Assembly: GCA_002010305.1 (NCBI GenBank)
Contig: MTND01000021.1
Location: forward strand, 35,926-79,093
Length of the DNA: 43,168 nt
From: Archaeoglobi archaeon JdFR-42
GTDB lineage: Archaea > Halobacteriota > Archaeoglobi > Archaeoglobales > JdFR-42
Direction of reading: 5' to 3'
The notes beneath the pieces were generated by a model. That model saw only the letters and a program-made list of their open reading frames with translations. It was not told the DNA's origin and did no database searches. Shown piece by piece: positions 12,149-37,624 of this stretch. Position 1 is the stretch's first letter. Each line of letters opens with the position of its first letter. Position numbers and translations under genes: made by a program.

Positions 12149-13180
12149 TTATAAAGCCTTGGATAAGGATTCACCTTTCTTCTGAAGGAAGGCTTCAATC
12201 AGTCCCAAGTTGCCAACTACCATTACATCTCCTGCTGGATTGGCAAGAGTTCCGTGATAACCCTGCGAGAAGTAAATATCAGAATTTGGCCCCGTAACAA
12301 CAATTTCTTTAGGCTCAACGACTTCGAACACAGCACACCCATGACCTCCATCTTCGAACACATCTCTATTAGTCAGTTTTCCAGCAATAAATCTAGCAAA
12401 AAAATCTCCAACATCTCTATTTCGAATAATGGAAGTATGATGCTCAAATAAGGAATATACTTCCATATCCTCCCCAATAACACCCCCAACTGTATGACCG
12501 TTTCCAAAATTGACTATCAAAGCAGGAAAAGTGTCTACAGAAAGCCAAGCTCCTATCATCGACGAAAATACCGTGTCCATAACATATATCTCTCCAGAAA
12601 GATACTCATAGAGACTCTTCATTCTGCTAAAATAATCAGGCAATGTGTTCTTGGAAAAAAGAAAAGCAGAAAGTCTGGAGTTCTTTTTCAGAATTTCCTT
12701 AAATTTGGCAAATCTAAATTTCCTATTACTAACATCTGGAGAGAAACCATGATCCTGGACAGCTATTAAAGCAATATCAGGCCACGGCTCATATATCCTT
12801 TCCAAAATTTCTCTAATAATAGACTCATCCACATCTTTAAGAACAACTTCCTTAACGGGCTTATCAGGCTCTTCAAACTTCACACCCCATCGCAACACTT
12901 TATCAAGATCGTCAGAAAAAGTATATGCTGCCTGTTTCTCTGCATAAACGTCTAAACCAGCTTTAAGATGGTTTTTCACAGCCATTGTCACCGCTCCACC
13001 ACCCATAATGTATCCCTTTAAATAAACCGGCATACTCTGCTCTGTGGCCTGTGAGATCTCCCTGCTCTTTATGATGGTGGGAGATGGTAAAATTAGCTTT
13101 GGACAGTTCTGTAACTTCCTTGATGGATCATATAACAGTATATCTTGGGTTCCCATGCCTATATCCATTGTAAGAATCAT
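12149..13180 (-). CDS. DUF1786 protein with ASKHA-like fold
   Basis: A 343-aa protein beginning ILTMDIGMGTQDILLYD, a phosphate-binding-1-like motif of actin/sugar kinase folds. It also has a glycine-rich LKGYIMGGGAVTMAV and NFGNGHTVGGVIGED. The overall pattern matches DUF1786, an archaeal family that databases label 'putative pyruvate formate-lyase activating enzyme' without, to my knowledge, experimental support. It has no radical SAM motif. ATP binding is the only inference I would make. Its ATG overlaps the polyprenyl synthase stop by 4 nt (ATGA), so the two are translationally coupled. Confidence 0.75.
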   Translation of the reverse strand: MILTMDIGMGTQDILLYDPSRKLQNCPKLILPSPTIIKSREISQATEQSMPVYLKGYIMGGGAVTMAVKNHLKAGLDVYAEKQAAYTFSDDLDKVLRWGVKFEEPDKPVKEVVLKDVDESIIREILERIYEPWPDIALIAVQDHGFSPDVSNRKFRFAKFKEILKKNSRLSAFLFSKNTLPDYFSRMKSLYEYLSGEIYVMDTVFSSMIGAWLSVDTFPALIVNFGNGHTVGGVIGEDMEVYSLFEHHTSIIRNRDVGDFFARFIAGKLTNRDVFEDGGHGCAVFEVVEPKEIVVTGPNSDIYFSQGYHGTLANPAGDVMVVGNLGLIEAFLQKKGESLSKAL

Positions 13181-14124
13181 GGTACCATAGGCTGAATTAT
13201 TGTTGCTATGCCCACGTGGGTGTTGTCGGCCAGATATTCTTTTATCAGATCAACAGTCATATAATCAACAATTTTCAGAAGTTTCTGCTTTTCTTCCCTT
13301 GCAGGAAAGATCTCAAGAGATCTTTTTGCTTTTTCCACATGTTCCCAGATCCTTGTCAGTACCTTTCGGATTCCTCTTTCAAGCCCATACAGCTTCGTAT
13401 ATATCAGGGGCAAGGTTATAGATTCGAATTCAGAGCTTTTATCTTCTTGGAGCCTTGCGAATTCAAGGAAATCGTCAACAATCTGGTATGCCAAGCCGAG
13501 TTCTTTCCCATAGTTGTATAGATGACTGGCCCACTCTTTATCCTGGGAGACGATTCTACATCCAGCCCAACTACTAATAGCAAAGAGAGTGGCTGTTTTG
13601 TTCCATATACAGCGGTAATAATCCTCCTCAGTGAAGGTGTCCATCCTGACACTCTCAAGATCAAGAATCTCTCCCTCTGCCATCTTCATACCAACCATGG
13701 CAAATTCCCGTATAAGCTCCTTCTCATATCGGGAAATGAGTTCAACAGATTTAGAAATAAGGAAATCTCCGATAAGCAGTGCTATTGATTTATCATACTC
13801 CCTATGGAGACATTTCACATTCCTTCTGTAATTCCCCTCGTCGATTATATCGTCATGAACCAGTGATGCTGTATGAATGAGTTCAATTGCCAGAGCAGCA
13901 TCCAGCACTTCATCGATATTACCCCCACACATTTTCCCTGAAACCATTGTTATGATAGGACGTACTCTCTTTCCCCCTGCTCGGATTATATGCTCCAGCC
14001 CTTTTTTTACTTTTGGTTCTCCATTCAGTTTTTCTACCATATTTTTCAGGGAGTTTTCTACCACTGAATACTCAACCCAGTCCTGAACCATCTGTTTAGC
14101 ACCTTTTTCTATGAGGCTTTCCAA
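13177..14124 (-). CDS. Polyprenyl (geranylgeranyl or longer) diphosphate synthase
   Basis: A 315-aa trans-isoprenyl diphosphate synthase. It has GGKRVRP (residues 50-56), the first Asp-rich motif DDIIDEGNYRR (from Asp91), and a second motif DDFLE (Asp217-Asp218-x2-Glu221) where Glu replaces the usual final Asp. Archaea need such enzymes for ether lipid chains. The residue five before the first motif, which helps set chain length, is Ala86 (HTASLVHDD), as in bacterial octaprenyl synthases; bulky residues there stop elongation early. So a product longer than C20, for a quinone-like or phenazine side chain, is possible. It heads the operon with DUF1786. Confidence 0.85.
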   Translation of the reverse strand: MESLIEKGAKQMVQDWVEYSVVENSLKNMVEKLNGEPKVKKGLEHIIRAGGKRVRPIITMVSGKMCGGNIDEVLDAALAIELIHTASLVHDDIIDEGNYRRNVKCLHREYDKSIALLIGDFLISKSVELISRYEKELIREFAMVGMKMAEGEILDLESVRMDTFTEEDYYRCIWNKTATLFAISSWAGCRIVSQDKEWASHLYNYGKELGLAYQIVDDFLEFARLQEDKSSEFESITLPLIYTKLYGLERGIRKVLTRIWEHVEKAKRSLEIFPAREEKQKLLKIVDYMTVDLIKEYLADNTHVGIATIIQPMVP

Positions 14125-14162
14125 ATAATATAAATGTATTCCTATTTAGATAAATTTGATGT

Positions 14163-16622
14163 TCAGTATGGAAGACTATCATTCAGATTAAATTCTCTAA
14201 ATTCTCCATTTGCTTCCGTCATTCCACTCATCATATCTCCTATTCCCTGAATCCCAGGTGGGACAACCACTACAATGGCCGTAGTGAAATTAAAGGATGG
14301 AGGGCGGTTTTCACCAATGAGCTCACCATTAAAAGGATCTTTTACAACCTCGAACTGTCTTGTGTACTTCAGAGGATAATATCCTTCATCACCAGGTATC
14401 CCTATATTAGTTATATCCGCGATGGTAGAGGAGAGGTAATGTCCTTTGACCTGGATGATCCAGATATTGAGTGTTATAAGCCATGGTTCAGGAGGAGGTA
14501 AAATTCTAAGACCGCCATGTAAAGATGTTAGTGAGGGAAAAACACACACATTGCGTATAGAAAGCAGATACAGCTTCTTTTCAGTTCCATTTACGTTAAT
14601 GCGGGTAACAGCCCCACCTTTCAGATAAGAAGGTTCCTGATAAATCTCCAGAACAACTGATTCATTGAAAAGGGTTCTATTACCTTTAAGGCGTGTAAGC
14701 TCAAAACCTCCTGTGGAGTATATGGTTATCTCTTTAGTCAGATATTCTTTTCCCTTCTCCCATCCTTCTACAACCTTTTCAATTAGAGGTACGGAGCTCA
14801 ACTGGCCTTTCATGGTCGCACGGGTATCCTCAAGCCCTTTATTATAAGTCTCCTCCATTTTTTTCCCTACATAATCGATGAACCATTTTTTTGAAAGGTA
14901 CATAGCCTTATCTTTTGCAGAATTGAATTGACCATTACCATCCCTGTACCTATCAGAGGAAAGCCAGTCTTCTCGATTACTGTTAAACTCCTGTAACGAA
15001 ATGGAACGCATCTCTACAATGAGTTTTTCTGGATGAGAATATTCTCTGAAATCTATTTTCCCAGTGAGGTTCAGGCTCTTCTTCATGCTCGCTTTTATTT
15101 CATTCAATTCCTTTAGTATCTCTTTTCTGAGTACCGGATCGTAGTCACATACAACATTCCCATATACATGGCTTAGATTGCCATATAACATAGATTCCTT
15201 ATTTGGATCATACAGCTGATTCTTTATTTTATCCACTATATCAGCCAGATTCCTATCCCCTCTATGAGGTATGAAAGGTCTTGCAATGTCATCATAAAAG
15301 CCAAGAGATTCTGAATAACGTATAATCCTGAAATTCACCACCACTTCTGTTATCTTTCTGTCTGTAAACGATGCAATATCACCATTTTTATTCCAATAAT
15401 AACTTTCCCTAGTATAGATTAATTTCCATTTTTCCTTGTAGATATCTGGATATAGACCCTCGCTCTGTTCAACGAGATAGGATGTGAGCAACTCCCATTC
15501 TGTACTTCCAGATGGAAACTCGAATCCGGGATGGGGAGAATAGAGATAATAGGAGTGTTTCTTAACCTCTATGGACACGTCTGCTGAGTAAACACCTCTG
15601 ATGATTTCACTTACAGTCCTGTTCATCGTCTCCAGATCAACAGCATCTACTATGGATGACAGATTCACAGTCACTTCAGACATGGATGATGTCATTTCTG
15701 GATTATTACCTGATTTAAACAGTAATTCTGTAAGATCTATCACAGCACTCATGTTACGAGTCCTGTTAAATTTTTTAATACCCCATTTCAGGGCATCTAC
15801 ACCTGTCTCTTTCCCTAACTCAAAGATGCCATCGACATCCACTGCTCTGAGTTTTTGATTCTGATATACAAATACTCCCAGATTAACGATTTTCTCAATA
15901 TCTGAATTGCTCACCACATTGGATATTCCTTTTCCAAAATACTGAGCATACCCTTTGGTCCATGCAATAGCCCAGATCATTGGTGTTGTCATGATCAGCA
16001 TTCCGGTATCATTAATTGACTCATAATATTCCTCAGCCCTCCACTCTAAGAAGGGTAATCGTGATGTTACAGTGGTTTCCAGAAAAACAGGATATTCAAT
16101 AGTACTCTGATCATGATGGATGAATATTATCGTCGCCGGTATTTTCACAGTATAATATACGGTTACCGACGATGCATTATCCAGTGTCATATTGTATCTC
16201 TCGAGAGATAATCCATCCCAGTCCCCGATTCTGACATCTACGGTGTACTCTTCCCACAATAGAGGAAATCTTGATTCCAACATATCTTCAAAATACCTGT
16301 AAGTTAAATATCTCCAGTAATTTTCACGGACAGTATAATTGCCATTCTTAAATAAAGATTTGTTGTACCACACCACAATGGGATGGTTTCCAGCATAGTC
16401 TGATGCCCTTAATCCAGCGTAATTGAGGAGGGAATTTAACTCTTGAACAAGAAAAGGAATCCTTCGATCCAGTCTGTTAATTTCAGATGCTTCAATAACA
16501 TCCATTGCTTTCTGGTACTCTAAGTGATTAAAGTATGCAGAAATAGTGATGGATAGAATAATCAGCAGTATCCCAATAACAGCAAATGGAATTCGGGCAA
16601 AAGAATCTTTCCAGAACCTCAT
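14163..16622 (-). CDS. Large N-terminally anchored surface protein of the pilin-like cluster
   Basis: An 819-aa protein with one N-terminal membrane helix (about residues 12-32, IPFAVIGILLIILSITISAY). A long extracellular-type region rich in Asn-x-Ser/Thr sequons and aromatic residues follows. No enzyme motif or repeat is recognised. It is the last gene of a five-gene leftward cluster of membrane-anchored proteins, preceded by GGAGATAATACC (Shine-Dalgarno plus spacing) 4 nt after the shifted end of the fourth gene. The gene order (small pilin-like proteins followed by one large protein) recalls uncharacterised pilin-like clusters of other euryarchaea, but I cannot assign a named family. Confidence 0.6.
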   Translation of the reverse strand: MRFWKDSFARIPFAVIGILLIILSITISAYFNHLEYQKAMDVIEASEINRLDRRIPFLVQELNSLLNYAGLRASDYAGNHPIVVWYNKSLFKNGNYTVRENYWRYLTYRYFEDMLESRFPLLWEEYTVDVRIGDWDGLSLERYNMTLDNASSVTVYYTVKIPATIIFIHHDQSTIEYPVFLETTVTSRLPFLEWRAEEYYESINDTGMLIMTTPMIWAIAWTKGYAQYFGKGISNVVSNSDIEKIVNLGVFVYQNQKLRAVDVDGIFELGKETGVDALKWGIKKFNRTRNMSAVIDLTELLFKSGNNPEMTSSMSEVTVNLSSIVDAVDLETMNRTVSEIIRGVYSADVSIEVKKHSYYLYSPHPGFEFPSGSTEWELLTSYLVEQSEGLYPDIYKEKWKLIYTRESYYWNKNGDIASFTDRKITEVVVNFRIIRYSESLGFYDDIARPFIPHRGDRNLADIVDKIKNQLYDPNKESMLYGNLSHVYGNVVCDYDPVLRKEILKELNEIKASMKKSLNLTGKIDFREYSHPEKLIVEMRSISLQEFNSNREDWLSSDRYRDGNGQFNSAKDKAMYLSKKWFIDYVGKKMEETYNKGLEDTRATMKGQLSSVPLIEKVVEGWEKGKEYLTKEITIYSTGGFELTRLKGNRTLFNESVVLEIYQEPSYLKGGAVTRINVNGTEKKLYLLSIRNVCVFPSLTSLHGGLRILPPPEPWLITLNIWIIQVKGHYLSSTIADITNIGIPGDEGYYPLKYTRQFEVVKDPFNGELIGENRPPSFNFTTAIVVVVPPGIQGIGDMMSGMTEANGEFREFNLNDSLPY

Positions 16623-16626
16623 GGTA

Positions 16627-17372
16627 TTATCTCCAGATTGCCATCTTAACCGTGATGATATGTGGCTTGAAAGATGTATTGAGCCATGTGTACACTGGAC
16701 CTTCTACCTCTCCCTTTTCCAGCATAACTTCTACAAGCTCGTAGATATCCCTGAACCTGCCACTGCATCATTCCTGTCTGTTACATTGGTCACAATATCA
16801 TATTTCAGATCTATTAATAGGCTGGTGCTTTTCCTTCTGAATAGCTCTTCTGAAATACCACCATCTTTATAATCCTTCATTGCTGATGAAAGCTCTGCAA
16901 CTACAAGAGGTAATCTCTCCGATATGATACTCTTCAAAGGACTAATGTTTACTGGAGTGAAAAGAATAGTCCTGGCATGATACTCTCCACTATAAGGTTC
17001 TCCTACCGACTTGCGAGTTACAACTCCTAATATGGGTTCGTATTCCATTGAAATATTATAGTGGTAACTTGGAGGTAAAAGACTGGACATCACTGAGTTG
17101 ATCGTACTCTCTAAGCCGATACTTTCATTGTAACAGACCTCCCTGACAATCATTTCCCGGACTGTAAGATGATAGCTGCCATTAATTTCAATTAACCTGG
17201 TATTCAGGAGATCAAACAGAGCTGCTTCAGCCAGATTCTTTTTCCCAGTATGCAATAATACATTATGAGATAGATCAGAGTACTGGGGGTGTATTATAAT
17301 GACAATGGCCACTGAAACCATGGAAAGGAATATTAACGCATCGATAAGAGAAGAGAATCCAGAATCGTCTAT
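16627..17372 (-). pseudogene. Pilin-like anchored protein with AUA start and internal frameshift
   Basis: The uninterrupted ATG-initiated frame (17321-16731) cuts into a membrane helix and ends at a TAG. The same frame reads upstream as DDSGFSSLIDALIFLS joined to MVSVAIVIII, a complete pilin-like N-terminus. No ATG, GTG or TTG lies in that upstream stretch; the codon in place is ATA (17372-17370), overlapping the stop of the preceding gene and 6 nt after a GGAGGT Shine-Dalgarno. At the other end, a -1 shift between about 16768 and 16731 opens a protein-like extension (RDIYELVEVMLEKGEVEG and on) to a TAA at 16629-16627, 4 nt before the next gene. Together these suggest one gene of about 245 codons carrying two lesions, or errors in the assembly. 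Confidence 0.6.
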
Positions 17373-17806
17373 GGAACCACCTCCACTATCATCTGACCAG
17401 GAACTTGCAATAATTCATCAAACTCAATAATCACAGGAAGCTGCATTGTCACTGGTCTTCCATTCTTAACCCCCTTCTCGATTATCCAAACCATTCCATT
17501 TCCACTTACCTCAATTCTAAAATAAAAAAAGAAAGAAGGTATTTCATCTGAATTGTTGCTAAAATATTCTAGCCTCTCGACCTTCAATACACCAGGGGAT
17601 TCCCCAAGATAGTTTTCTATGAGATGGCTGGAAAAAAGCATCAAACTCTGAACGTTTTGTTCTATTTCTTCTGATTCCATCATATCCCCATAAGTAGCCA
17701 TTAAAAAGGATAAAAAGAGCATAAAACCAATAATCACCAGAATCAGGGATATTAGATCGAACAAAGAGTCCATTCCTTTTTCATTCAAAGATAACGATAA
17801 GCCCAT
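17369..17806 (-). CDS. Pilin-like small membrane-anchored protein
   Basis: A 145-aa protein with a short charged N-terminus ending NEKG, a helix DSLFDLISLILVIIGFML, and a soluble beta-rich C-terminal region (VSGNGMVWIIEKG). The Lys-Gly then hydrophobic helix starting at Met-Asp-Ser is the layout of a class III (prepilin peptidase-type) signal. The start at 17806 overlaps the previous gene by 26 nt; an internal ATG further in (GMDSLF) would remove the signal region, so the longer start is preferred. Third of five cluster genes. Function inferred only from context. Confidence 0.6.
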   Translation of the reverse strand: MGLSLSLNEKGMDSLFDLISLILVIIGFMLFLSFLMATYGDMMESEEIEQNVQSLMLFSSHLIENYLGESPGVLKVERLEYFSNNSDEIPSFFFYFRIEVSGNGMVWIIEKGVKNGRPVTMQLPVIIEFDELLQVPGQMIVEVVP

Positions 17807-18329
17807 ATTTCATAACACCATTTGAGGTATTCACATGAATGAGAGCCTTTCCCAGCTTCATCTCCTTCCAGAACACAGCTGGACTGGTAGAAAGTTCCAA
17901 GCCAGCTTCATCCACATATTTCATAAACTGGTCCATGTCTTGTTGATCAAGAGGGTTAGTGAAATTTCCGGAATGGTTGTACATTGAGGCAAGATATCTA
18001 TGGAAGGCCTTAAGATCCTTGAAAGGCATTACCACCAGCGGCAAAGGAGTTTTCATAACATAACTCATTTCATCTACAGTTAATGTAAAATACTCTCTGG
18101 ATATCTCCAGTTTTCCTTCAAAACTCACATATACCTCTTTCTCCATTTGAGCTCTGCCAAGCTCTGATATTACTCTGCTTATTTTGCTTGCTTCTGCCTC
18201 TATTTCAAGCTCTCTGTTATAAGCATCAATTACGCCTGATAACCTCAAAACAACAGTTATCAAGACAAGAGAAATGAGCAATAGTCCAATTTTTGAATAT
18301 ATAAGTTCTAACCACCCTTCATCGCTCAT
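17781..18329 (-). CDS. Pilin-like small membrane-anchored protein
   Basis: A 182-aa protein with start MSDEGWLELIYSKIG, followed by the helix LLLISLVLITVVLRLSGVI and a soluble region including YNRELEIEAEASKISRVI. A longer reading begins at 18374 but would overlap the upstream gene by 56 nt; the ATG at 18329 overlaps by only 11 nt and puts Asp-Glu-Gly directly before the hydrophobic helix, as in the neighbours. The start is therefore set at 18329. Second of five cluster genes. No enzymatic motif is seen. Confidence 0.6.
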   Translation of the reverse strand: MSDEGWLELIYSKIGLLLISLVLITVVLRLSGVIDAYNRELEIEAEASKISRVISELGRAQMEKEVYVSFEGKLEISREYFTLTVDEMSYVMKTPLPLVVMPFKDLKAFHRYLASMYNHSGNFTNPLDQQDMDQFMKYVDEAGLELSTSPAVFWKEMKLGKALIHVNTSNGVMKYGLIVIFE

Positions 18330-18804
18330 ATTCAACGACTCTGATCCCCAAAACACTTCTGTTTGAAATCTCAAATATCTTGATTTCCAGAATATGGCTT
18401 CCTGGATAGAGAACTACCGGCCGATCTTCAAGTCGCTCATCAAACCTGTAAAAATCCAGTTCATTTACATAGATTTTCATATCACCTCCTGCTTTAAAAA
18501 ACATATTATTACGGCCTCCTTCTCTAATAACACCATTGTCAGAAGGGAGGCCCCCAATAACCACTATGTTCACATCAACTGGTATGTGTATATTCACCTT
18601 TTGCCAGTTTACAAGCCCTGTTGATGCCATGGTTTCTCCTAAAGTAGTAATTTTCAATAATTCCTTTTCCATCATTCGCTGGCTTTTCTCAAACTCCATA
18701 TCCTTGATAAGGTCGACAGCAACTCCCAGAAGAATCAGAACTAGCACCAGAGGAACTACTATTCTGAAAGACAAACCCTCCATCAAAGGCCTCCACTCAT
18801 CCAA
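18319..18804 (-). CDS. Pilin-like small membrane-anchored protein, first of the cluster
   Basis: A 161-aa protein with N-terminus ending MEG, then the helix LSFRIVVPLVLVLILLGVAV, and a charged linker (FEKSQRMMEKELLKITT) before a soluble beta-rich domain. It has Gly before the hydrophobic helix, as in the next three genes. No pilus ATPase (TadA/FlaI-type), TadC-type platform or prepilin peptidase is encoded nearby, so the assembly machinery, if any, is elsewhere. The gene starts the operon; the upstream spacer (18805-19006) is shared with the divergent ArsA gene. Confidence 0.6.
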   Translation of the reverse strand: MDEWRPLMEGLSFRIVVPLVLVLILLGVAVDLIKDMEFEKSQRMMEKELLKITTLGETMASTGLVNWQKVNIHIPVDVNIVVIGGLPSDNGVIREGGRNNMFFKAGGDMKIYVNELDFYRFDERLEDRPVVLYPGSHILEIKIFEISNRSVLGIRVVEYER

Positions 18805-32429: not shown

Positions 32430-33812
32430 TCATTTCGGTTTTTTAGGAACCCATTCTTCCAGTTTTATTTTAGCATATATATCTGAAGGAATTGAATTTC
32501 TCTCAAGAAATGATTCGTCTGTTATAGTAGCATCTATTATCACTTTCTCCAACCTCAACCATTTGTGAAGTGCCTCAACGTTATTGATGACATCCAAGCC
32601 TTCCGAAAAATTTGTTCTTGTTATAACTGCCCATAAAACCTCCCTTTCATCAAAAACGTCAACATCATCATCAACCACAACTACCAGCTTCAGCTGAGCA
32701 GTTTCTGATAAAGCTGCAAGGGCAAGCCTCTTCGGAATTCCATCTCTTGTCTTTTTAACAGAAACGTAACAGCTCATTCTCGATTGTCCAGAGTAAGGAA
32801 AATGTACAGATTTCACATTAGGGTCAATCGATCTCAATTTTCTGAGAAGACTCCCCTCTTTTGGGATTCCCCCTAAATTGAAATGTTCCTTATGTGCTGG
32901 AAAAATGTGCTGTATCATGGGGCTCTTTCTCATATTAATTGCTGTAACCTCAATGACTGGTTTTTCCAGTCTGGGCTGGTAGTATCCAGTGATCTCTCCA
33001 AAAGGATTTGTAATTTCTCTTTTTCCAGGAATTATTTCTCCCTCGATAACCATTTCTGCGTCGGCTGGTATAAGAAATTTATCTCCCCACGTTTCTGAAG
33101 GCGTCAATCGAAATTCTTTTTCAAAAAAAGACGATATAGTTTCATAATCGTTATTTTCAAAGGGTGTGAGAGGGAGGGTGCCGAGAAAAAACAGCGGGTG
33201 ATGACCCAGAATTATAATAACAGGGCATCTGGAATTTTCTTTTTCATATTCTTCATGCACTAATGCCAGATGCTGTCCTGGATGTGCTACAAAAGTAAGT
33301 CGAGAAGAATCAACGATTCTATTTTTAACAAATGAGAGTTCATAAAATTCCCTTCCAAACCCCTTCACTCCATCAACCATTGTTAATGTATATCCAAAAT
33401 CTTTTTCATGAAATTTCGGGACAGGTAGATCATTCAGATTAATTTTCTCTCCTTTTAAGATTCTTTGTTTAACTGGTGCATCTTTTTTATCTATAACTTT
33501 TGGATATTTCTTTTCTTCCAGTATATTGTAAAATCCCTCCACAAGCTCAGTCTTTTCATCTTCAGCATCTATCAATCTGGCACATCTTTTTCTTGACGCA
33601 AATATGTTGAAGAGGATTGGAATATCTGAAGGATTTCCTTTGATGTTAATGGGATTCTGGAAGATAACAATGGGTGGGTCTTTTTCTTTATCAAGCTTGT
33701 CCAGAATAGTAGAAATCACGAAGTCATCCATTCTGACCTCTCTTTCTATCCATATGACTTCATCAGGGTATTCCTCCTCATATTGAATCAAAAACTCTCC
33801 CAACCCATCCAT
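32430..33812 (-). CDS. UbiD-family protein with altered active site
   Basis: A 460-aa UbiD-fold protein. Aligned by eye to its neighbours, it loses most catalytic residues of the prenyl-FMN decarboxylases: the Arg of NVGxYR is Lys163 (SFVKNRIV), the preceding Asn is Glu, and the first Glu of EGPFGE is Thr268 (TNPFGE). The second Glu (Glu273), the metal-site Glu in IPADAE and a His in PGQH remain. It may be a structural or regulatory partner of the UbiD encoded just upstream, with which it overlaps or abuts; the start at 33812 follows GAGGAGG. A role alone as decarboxylase seems unlikely. Confidence 0.8.
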   Translation of the reverse strand: MDGLGEFLIQYEEEYPDEVIWIEREVRMDDFVISTILDKLDKEKDPPIVIFQNPINIKGNPSDIPILFNIFASRKRCARLIDAEDEKTELVEGFYNILEEKKYPKVIDKKDAPVKQRILKGEKINLNDLPVPKFHEKDFGYTLTMVDGVKGFGREFYELSFVKNRIVDSSRLTFVAHPGQHLALVHEEYEKENSRCPVIIILGHHPLFFLGTLPLTPFENNDYETISSFFEKEFRLTPSETWGDKFLIPADAEMVIEGEIIPGKREITNPFGEITGYYQPRLEKPVIEVTAINMRKSPMIQHIFPAHKEHFNLGGIPKEGSLLRKLRSIDPNVKSVHFPYSGQSRMSCYVSVKKTRDGIPKRLALAALSETAQLKLVVVVDDDVDVFDEREVLWAVITRTNFSEGLDVINNVEALHKWLRLEKVIIDATITDESFLERNSIPSDIYAKIKLEEWVPKKPK

Positions 33813-33813
33813 C

Positions 33814-35277
33814 TCAAGATTCCTCCTCAAAAACATCAACCACAGGAGGGTCTTCTTCTATTCCAAATTCTTTCCATCTTGTTATAACTCTCTCATAGAC
33901 TTCTTTTCTAAGCAGGTTTCTAGGTGAAAATTTATCGAAGTGTTTGTAGTCTTTGCAGGCGTTTAACAGAAGCTTTGACCCCCAAGGTCTTATCTCAGGC
34001 GGATTGAGAGTCGGATCAAGCCAAGTGCTCCATGTATCCTTAAGCACAGTTATATCATCTTTTGGGCTGAATCTCGTAGCAAGAGCCCATATAACCTGAT
34101 TTATATCATATGGGTCTATATCCTCATCCACTACAATTATGATTTTAGAGTAATAGGCACCGGCAGGACATTGTGCAGCAAGAGATAGCACCTGTGAAGC
34201 ATGTCCAGGATGGAGTTGTTTGAGAGAGATAATTGTCATTCCAAATCCACCAGCAGCAGCAGGATGGCTGTATACCCCCTTCACACCTAGAATTCCAAGT
34301 TTATCGAGATCTTCCCAGATTTTTGCAGCTCTACATATTCCAAAAAAGAAGGCTTGATCACTTGGTGGATACTCTGCCATTAAAGCTGAAGTAATGATAG
34401 GCTTATCTCTATGATATACAGCCTCAACTTCAATGTAAGGGGTTTCCTCTGCTGGTCTCCCATAGTACCCTGTAAATTCGCCGAAAGGGCCTTCTATGAC
34501 TGTTTTCTCTGGATAGGAGTAACCCTCTATCACCACCTCGGCATTAGCTGGAATTGGTAAACCTGTTATTTCACCTTCTATTAGTTTGAAAGATCCTTTT
34601 ATCCCTGCCACATGTTCGAATTCATTCTCTCCTCTCGGGAAGGCCAGAGACCCGATGAGATACAGCAATGGATCTGTGCCATACACTGCTACAACCGGAC
34701 ATGGTTCTCCCCTGTCCCAATATTTTTTCCGTATAATATCAACATCTTTCCCAGGTGATGAATAGAACCCAACTTTAGTTTTATCTACAACCATCTGTCT
34801 ATAAACTCCCACGTTGACCCAGTCAGAATCAGGATCTTTGGTTATGATTGCATCAGCCGTCCCTATGTATCTACCTCCATCTCTTGGCCACATCTTTGGA
34901 GCAGGAAATTTAGTCATATCAATATTTTCTTTATAAATCACGTTTTCTTTTACAGGGGCATCTTTTACGAATCTCGGCTTTTCTTTCTTTTTCAGAAGTT
35001 CCTTAACTTTCAGAACCATCTCTCTAATAGAGGTATTTGGGTCTAAACCGAGAGTGTATGCTATTCTCCTTGGGCTATTCCCAAACATATTGAAAAGCAC
35101 TCTTCCGTCTTCCCCACCTTTGATGTTTTCAAAAAGGAGGGCAGGAGGGTTATTAGTTTTCCCGACCATATACACAAGGGAAGCCATTTCTTCAACTGGA
35201 TCTATTTCCGCATTGATTCTTTTCAATTCCCCCAACTCATCCATGGCCTCTATCCATTCACGTAGATCCGAATACAT
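33814..35277 (-). CDS. UbiD-family decarboxylase/carboxylase
   Basis: A 487-aa UbiD homologue. It keeps NVGVYR (Asn and Arg of the prenyl-FMN/metal site), IPANAEVVIEG, and the catalytic pair in EGPFGEFTGYYG. The usual metal-site His of PG-x-H is Asp here (PGKDVD), which may change cofactor binding. It would decarboxylate or carboxylate an aromatic or alpha,beta-unsaturated acid using prenylated FMN; the substrate is unknown. It is first of a two-gene leftward unit and divergent from the TrmB regulator across a 73-nt spacer, which suggests control by TrmB. Confidence 0.85.
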   Translation of the reverse strand: MYSDLREWIEAMDELGELKRINAEIDPVEEMASLVYMVGKTNNPPALLFENIKGGEDGRVLFNMFGNSPRRIAYTLGLDPNTSIREMVLKVKELLKKKEKPRFVKDAPVKENVIYKENIDMTKFPAPKMWPRDGGRYIGTADAIITKDPDSDWVNVGVYRQMVVDKTKVGFYSSPGKDVDIIRKKYWDRGEPCPVVAVYGTDPLLYLIGSLAFPRGENEFEHVAGIKGSFKLIEGEITGLPIPANAEVVIEGYSYPEKTVIEGPFGEFTGYYGRPAEETPYIEVEAVYHRDKPIITSALMAEYPPSDQAFFFGICRAAKIWEDLDKLGILGVKGVYSHPAAAGGFGMTIISLKQLHPGHASQVLSLAAQCPAGAYYSKIIIVVDEDIDPYDINQVIWALATRFSPKDDITVLKDTWSTWLDPTLNPPEIRPWGSKLLLNACKDYKHFDKFSPRNLLRKEVYERVITRWKEFGIEEDPPVVDVFEEES

Positions 35278-36199: not shown

Positions 36200-37624
36200 A
36201 TGAAGATTGAATTTGAGGATCTTAGAGAGTGGTTGATAAAAGTTAATCAAATGGGAGAACTCAAAAGGGCAAAAGGTATAAAATTGGAAAATGTGGGAAA
36301 AATTGCAGAAACTACTGTGCATCTTGAAAACACACCAGCTTTGCTTTTAGAGGAGTTTCCTGGATATGACCCTGGGTTTCGAATCTTGCTTAATGTATTC
36401 GGAAGCATTCAGAGGATTGCTCTCACTTTTGGCTTTCCCATCCATTCTGATAGAGTAACCTTAGTTAAACATTTTCAAAAAAAATTAGATGAAATGGAGC
36501 TTTTACCTCCTAAATATGTAAGTTCAGGCCCAATATTCGAAAATCGATTAACCGGTGAGAATGTAAACTTATACCAATTTCCAGTACCTAAATGGCATCC
36601 GGAGGATGGTGGTCCTTATATCGGTACTGGCTGTATGGTAATCACGCGAGATCCTGAAGATGGATGGGTAAACGTTGGTACCTACAGGAATCAACTTCAT
36701 GATGAAAAAACCATTGGGTTTTACATCTCACCTGGACATCATGGGTGGGTTCACAGAAAAAAATATTTTGAAAATGATGAGCCATGTCCTGTAGCAGTTG
36801 TTTTTGGTTCCGATCCCTTGTTATTTGCGGGTAGCATGATCGAGTTTCCTTGGGGGGTATGTGAGTTTGATGGGATCGGTGGTTGGCGAGGAGAGTCAGT
36901 AAAGGTTGTTAAAGGCTCCGTTACTGGACTTCCAATTCCTGCAAACGCTGAAATTGCTATCGAAGGATATTCTTATCCTGACAAGAAAAAAGAGGAGGGA
37001 CCTTTTGGAGAATGGACTGGGTATTACGGCAGTTCTCTTAGAGAGGAGCCATACATTGAGGTTGAAGCTGTTTACTTTCGTGACAATCCAATATTGCTTG
37101 GAATGCCACCCCAAAAGCCTCCATACGATGCAGATAAAGCAAGAGAATACATTAAATCTGCTCTCCTTTTTAATGAGCTGAAAAAATTGGGAATTCCGGG
37201 AATTATTAATGCATGGTGTTTTGGAATTGGAGGATGCAGACTTTTAATTGCTGTATCTATCAAACAGCAGTATCCAGGACATTCTCGACAGGTTGGCCAT
37301 GCTGTTTATTCTACTCCAATGGCAAATTACCTAGGGCGATATGTTATAGTTGTTGATGAAGATATTAACGTTACCGATCTCAATGAAGTGATGTGGGCTG
37401 TTTTAACCCGTTCTGATCCGGCTACGTCAATTGATATAATCACCAGAGCAACTTCAGGTCCTCTGGATCCTATATTGTCTCCTGAAAATAAAAAGATGGG
37501 GAGATTCTATAATTCTCGTGCTATTATCGATGCCACTAAACCATATGAGTGGAAGGAGAAATTCCCCAAATCTTTAAATCAAACTTCAAACAGCAAAACT
37601 TCTGAGAATATCACTGATGGGTGA
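36200..37624 (+). CDS. UbiD-family decarboxylase, complete active site
   Basis: A 474-aa UbiD homologue with NVGTYRNQ, PGHHGWVH, IPANAEIAIEG and EGPFGEWTGYYG all present, so it is the best candidate for activity among the three UbiD proteins of the locus. It lies 27 nt downstream of the TrmB gene, with a GGGGGGAAC Shine-Dalgarno-like element before the ATG. The C-terminal end is Ser/Asn-rich. No UbiX-like flavin prenyltransferase is encoded in the window. Cosubstrate and product are not predictable. Confidence 0.85.
   Translation: MKIEFEDLREWLIKVNQMGELKRAKGIKLENVGKIAETTVHLENTPALLLEEFPGYDPGFRILLNVFGSIQRIALTFGFPIHSDRVTLVKHFQKKLDEMELLPPKYVSSGPIFENRLTGENVNLYQFPVPKWHPEDGGPYIGTGCMVITRDPEDGWVNVGTYRNQLHDEKTIGFYISPGHHGWVHRKKYFENDEPCPVAVVFGSDPLLFAGSMIEFPWGVCEFDGIGGWRGESVKVVKGSVTGLPIPANAEIAIEGYSYPDKKKEEGPFGEWTGYYGSSLREEPYIEVEAVYFRDNPILLGMPPQKPPYDADKAREYIKSALLFNELKKLGIPGIINAWCFGIGGCRLLIAVSIKQQYPGHSRQVGHAVYSTPMANYLGRYVIVVDEDINVTDLNEVMWAVLTRSDPATSIDIITRATSGPLDPILSPENKKMGRFYNSRAIIDATKPYEWKEKFPKSLNQTSNSKTSENITDG

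Follow-up and report, generated by a model that had tools for sequence, protein, structure and literature searches.

Bacterial Tad systems combine minor pilins (TadE, TadF and TadG), with small N-terminally anchored pseudopilins and one large one, and a motor of the TadA/TadC type. In archaea, the closest described relatives of the locus presented here are the pili of subclade 4F, outlined in 2016 by Makarova et al. (PMC4858521). In the parts of that survey devoted to them, their ATPase and TadC are considered probably of crenarchaeal origin and their pilins euryarchaeal, the ATPase has a Cys-rich N-terminus, and an S-layer-like protein (frequent) and a stand-alone PilA-type pilin are further traits. 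Known archaeal pilin processing sites have G or A before the cut (RALS, KAIS, RAVS and KGQV; PMC4371748). Haloarchaeal genomes also contain clusters of DUF7311, DUF7283, DUF7285, DUF7284 and DUF7286 genes, in which TadA and TadC are located inside the cluster and DUF7311 lies upstream of TadA. In the literature searched we found no experimental study of this pilus type and no mention of DUF7286 or its sister DUFs by name.

The window, i.e. the whole stretch of DNA analysed (43,168 nucleotides of Archaeoglobi archaeon JdFR-42), contains at positions 14163-18804 of its minus strand five co-directional genes that overlap or are nearly contiguous. This cluster had been noticed in a first-pass annotation made from the sequence alone, and it is present at the coordinates given there, with all four of the quoted motifs (MEG|LSFR, DEG|WLEL, EKG|MDSL and DSG|FSSL). 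Gene 1 (18319..18804; 161 aa as listed) encodes a predicted DUF7311-like minor pilin, whose true start, as read from the sequence, is likely the ATG at 18783 (M-E-G|LSFR), preceded by GGAGG. Gene 2 (17781..18374; 197 aa as listed) encodes a putative minor pilin that corresponds in position to DUF7283 of haloarchaea, and its likely start is the ATG at 18329 (M-S-D-E-G|WLEL). The predicted products of gene 3 (17369..17806; 145 aa) and gene 4 (16731..17372; start approximate) are DUF7285-like and DUF7284-like minor pilins with the sites NEKG|MDSL and DDSG|FSSL, respectively; gene 4 has ATA at its start position, and its probable C-terminal end lies in a different reading frame (16627..16755). Gene 5 (14163..16622) encodes the DUF7286 protein of 819 aa, a predicted large pilin-like tip subunit with the site SFA|RIPF.

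No tRNA or Rfam element was found within the window. Downstream of the DUF7286 gene (window 12149-14163) lie genes for a polyprenyl synthetase and a DUF1786 protein, whose order is kept in a sister genome (L051:76-3237), where DUF7286 comprises only 390 aa. At 32430-35277 and 36200-37624, the window also encodes a trio of proteins that resemble one another (469, 487 and 474 aa) and by eye have the look of UbiD-type decarboxylases.

The families of these proteins, which the first-pass annotation could not name, can in large part be assigned. Gene 5 directly matches the Pfam model of DUF7286 (PF23957) with 124.5 bits against a curated cut-off of 27 (E 6.9e-36). The small proteins of the window gave no direct score against the models of DUF7311, DUF7283, DUF7285 and DUF7284, and DUF7311, DUF7285 and DUF7284 were reached through homologues. 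The profile of the gene 1 family finds the haloarchaeal DUF7311 proteins encoded upstream of TadA (best E 1e-12), and the two families align by hhalign with an E of 3.6e-8, cross-controls being null. Homologues of gene 3 occur in methanogen-type genomes and in Thermoplasmata, and one of them matches PF23956 (DUF7285) at 2e-8. An iterated profile search of the fetched loci detected relatives of gene 4 in 28 of them, mostly directly upstream of DUF7286, and these homologues match PF23955 (DUF7284). Homologues of gene 2 occupy the same position in methanogen-type genomes; its comparison with DUF7283 was not significant (E 0.04), and the two correspond by position only. None of the five proteins has a TadE-type Pfam match up to E 1. 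A profile search of the genome contigs with the 819-aa protein as a single sequence revealed no relatives; those of DUF7286 were found with a six-sequence alignment, an eight-sequence alignment being too divergent as a query.

The first-pass annotation ascribed a charged residue followed by Gly, ahead of a hydrophobic helix, to all four small proteins. This is the case for three of them; the fourth does not fit, having Ser before its Gly. Of 109 genes sampled from this genome, six encode a charged residue plus Gly ahead of an N-terminal hydrophobic stretch, and since three of those six belong to this operon, the motif exceeds chance expectation and a chance occurrence was rejected. In alignments, the residue at position -1 is Gly or Ala in 6/6 members of the gene 2 family, 8/8 of the gene 3 family and 20/21 of the gene 4 family, while the Gly of gene 1 is shifted relative to its homologues. 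The residue is thus conserved nearly throughout as Gly/Ala, in the manner of class III-type sites, and not as strict Gly.

A similar site in the 819-aa protein (SFA|RIPF) had been overlooked. In all 49 distinct DUF7286 N-termini with the motif [RYW][VIL]P, this is preceded by G (22) or A (27), the search having fixed the residues after the site and not G/A itself; nine further entries, some of them fragments, do not contain the motif and are outside the 49. The site, commonly [DE]xR[GA]|R[VI]PF, is usually preceded by Arg within an acidic stretch, and some leaders, as read from the sequence, are apparently only 3-5 residues long. Unlike the known archaeal sites (PMC4371748), that of DUF7286 is followed by R, Y or W and then by x-Pro.

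As regards the pilin fold that had been suggested, the AlphaFold model of gene 1 (pLDDT 84) predicts a helix (residues 5-62) followed by a beta domain of about eight strands, which would correspond to the general layout of archaeal pilins. This model gave no significant match to solved or viral structures (Foldseek), nor did sequence searches of solved structures with genes 1, 3 and 5; the pilin fold is therefore supported in part only. The model of the 819-aa DUF7286 protein (pLDDT 50) is uninterpretable and too poor for a structure search. The pilin-like character of the proteins is supported by the Gly/Ala site in the homologues, by the gene 1 model and by a prepilin peptidase encoded in the genome (C2:87677-88342; 57 and 65 bits).

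Own-genome searches gave no match to T2SSE, T2SSF or prepilin peptidase on the contig of the window (C6), in agreement with the earlier statement that no ATPase, platform protein or peptidase is nearby; all three are encoded elsewhere in the genome. There are four strong T2SSE matches, each adjoining a TadC/FlaJ-like gene: the archaellum locus (contig C10), two ordinary pairs (C2 and C11) and a divergent pair on C8, comprised of a TadA-type ATPase (C8:51784-53556) and a TadC (C8:49950-51779) that is below the threshold of the Pfam T2SSF model. The C8 ATPase scores 230-266 bits against the ATPases of haloarchaeal DUF7286 loci, compared with 109-121 bits against its own paralogues, and in a tree it groups with the homologues from haloarchaeal DUF7286 loci and methanogen-type genomes (support 100/100). 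A search with the C8 TadC matches only the TadC genes of haloarchaeal DUF7286 loci. The first 120 residues of the C8 ATPase include six Cys, as opposed to none in its three paralogues, and three Cys of this N-terminus are invariant in the alignment. The cluster had been described as lacking an assembly ATPase; a matching TadA/TadC pair is present on another contig. The genome also encodes two stand-alone Pilin_N (PilA-like) proteins, which may be major pilins of the dedicated arCOG02981 kind.

The link between this type of motor and DUF7286 was analysed in 296 genomes of the window's phylum, of which 98 contain DUF7286 and 100 a C8-type TadC. Both are present in 94 genomes and neither in 192, with DUF7286 only in four and TadC only in six (Fisher test, p 3e-64, a value that is descriptive only, as it ignores the relatedness of the genomes). 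Among the six TadC-only genomes, TadC is split or interrupted by a stop in three, and gene 3 persists in two; three of the four with DUF7286 only have a partial or stop-containing copy. The co-occurrence is near-obligate. The distance between the two loci depends on the type of genome, the labels haloarchaeal-type and methanogen-type being inferred from named relatives, named controls and neighbouring genes: C8-type TadA/TadC lies within 15 kb of DUF7286 in 46 of 49 haloarchaeal-type genomes and in 0 of 45 others, where the closest distances are 21.7 and 24.3 kb. The two loci are tied together by one methanogen-type genome, in which the motor pair is directly followed by a pilin resembling gene 1.

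The conservation of DUF7286 extends across haloarchaea, methanogens, Archaeoglobales and Thermoplasmata, and both Haloferax volcanii and Methanosarcina acetivorans contain it. The order gene1-gene2-gene3-gene4-DUF7286 is maintained in methanogen-type genomes, and gene3-gene4-DUF7286 in Thermoplasmata; in another genome (G307), a cluster of four pilins runs up to the edge of its contig. The next gene after DUF7286 in methanogen-type and Thermoplasmata genomes commonly encodes an exported sarcinarray MAST-domain protein (TIGR04209), a candidate for the S-layer-like component of the 4F system. Two Thermoplasmata loci (L104:6155-12064 and L113:7420-13435) comprise gene3-gene4-DUF7286-sarcinarray-like clusters (the sarcinarray protein of L104 was confirmed), and the system thus reaches beyond the window's phylum. 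The genome of the window has one lone sarcinarray-family gene (G000:C14:1696-2232), around which no pilus genes were found. A separate array (L060:3-4384; G188:C40) consists of three tandem units, in each of which a gene of the DUF7286 C-terminal type precedes one for a sarcinarray-like protein; the first of these proteins was confirmed as TIGR04209. Such pairing is suggestive of a cassette for recombination or of tips that can be exchanged.

The locus and its relatives share with subclade 4F a TadA with a Cys-rich N-terminus and its cognate TadC (here the C8 pair), a set of pilins whose sites are of class III type, PilA-like pilins from stand-alone genes, the occurrence in haloarchaea and methanogens, a coiled-coil gene recognised by eye in the vicinity of the haloarchaeal loci and of some methanogen-type ones and, in many relatives, an exported S-layer-like component, here sarcinarray. 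They differ from it in that the motor and the pilins are on separate contigs here and that the sarcinarray gene is also found elsewhere. The ATPase fits that of subclade 4F by its Cys-rich N-terminus, phyletic pattern and gene layout, rather than by placement in the published tree. Compared with the haloarchaeal DUF clusters, the families are the same or corresponding and genes 2-5 have the same order, the difference being the external motor. The layout is also similar to that of bacterial Tad minor pilins, an analogy that would apply to how the proteins work and not to membership. The system, which the first-pass annotation supposed might be undescribed, appears to be of a kind outlined in 2016 (subclade 4F; PMC4858521). 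Based on the computed family relations, gene order, Gly/Ala site, machinery present in the genome and co-occurrence, we consider it likely that the operon of the window supplies minor pilins and the tip for an archaeal pilus of the 4F type, the motor of which is encoded apart.

Two other readings concern the machine to which the proteins are assigned. The operon might be a real pilin set whose motor is supplied in trans by an ordinary euryarchaeal ATPase/TadC pair, either that on C2 or that on C11, with the C8 pair serving otherwise, and the exchangeability of motor modules and pilin sets, argued by Makarova et al. in the part of the survey concerned (PMC4858521), would permit this. However, it is the C8 type of TadC that tracks DUF7286 (together in 94 genomes, with ten discordant ones, several of them degraded-looking) and the C8-type motor that adjoins DUF7286 in haloarchaeal-type genomes, which makes this option very improbable. 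Alternatively, instead of an extended filament, the proteins could make up a complex anchored in the membrane, for secretion or as part of the envelope, which would be pseudopilin-like or S-layer-linked. The large size of DUF7286, the exported sarcinarray protein encoded next to it in methanogen-type and Thermoplasmata genomes and the lack of a dedicated major pilin in the operon are in keeping with such a complex, but the class III-type sites and the pilus-type motor speak against it, and the genome has stand-alone PilA-like pilins of the kind expected for archaeal pili from what the same survey says of them (PMC4858521); we regard it as unlikely.

A further question is whether the system is decaying in this particular genome, with both the start codon and the reading frame of gene 4 lost. 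No ATG, GTG or TTG start was found for this gene, and the ATG of its homologues is replaced by ATA at 17372-17370. A C-terminus-like end in another frame (16755-16627) corresponds to profile positions 366-400 of 404, a weak match (4.1 bits; E 0.005 with four targets searched), and gene 4 probably carries a frameshift. In the sister genome with the short DUF7286 (G001), gene 3 is not detectable. On the other hand, the other four genes of the operon and the C8 pair are all open, and the ATA overlaps the TAG stop of gene 3 as ATAG and is preceded by GGAGGTG (window 17363-17400), which suggests a usable start; an error of the metagenome assembly is also possible, and the assembly of the sister genome comprises 230 contigs. 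The ATA is possibly an initiation codon or a lost ATG. Gene 4 may be decayed or mis-assembled; decay, an unusual start together with an assembly error, or both could account for its state. Decay of the system in this genome appears rather improbable.

If the operon encodes the minor pilins and tip of a 4F-type pilus, its products would be inserted into the membrane, where the prepilin peptidase of the genome would cleave them behind the Gly or Ala, and the processed products would be extruded by the TadA/TadC pair on C8. The minor pilins would be the four small proteins, DUF7286, the large protein, would most likely be a tip or adhesin subunit, and the shaft would be built from the PilA-like pilins of the stand-alone genes. 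What we infer from the comparisons is thus that the products are cleaved and assembled, that the C8 motor serves them in this cell, and that DUF7286 sits at the tip and takes part in adhesion. More tentatively, and with somewhat more doubt than belief, the five proteins might constitute one dedicated tip complex in which DUF7286 is itself a giant class III-type prepilin, an archaeal counterpart of tips of the PilY or TadG type that is often linked to an exported sarcinarray protein.

In each of the 45 non-haloarchaeal genomes compared, the pilins of this 4F-like kind are encoded at a distance from their motor, and the absence of a nearby ATPase is therefore no evidence for a new system. The operon is ordinary in kind and its value lies mainly in annotation: five unnamed genes, together with several Pfam families of unknown function, become predicted parts of one pilus machine, and the C8-type motor, DUF7286 and sarcinarray become testable partners for this pilus type.
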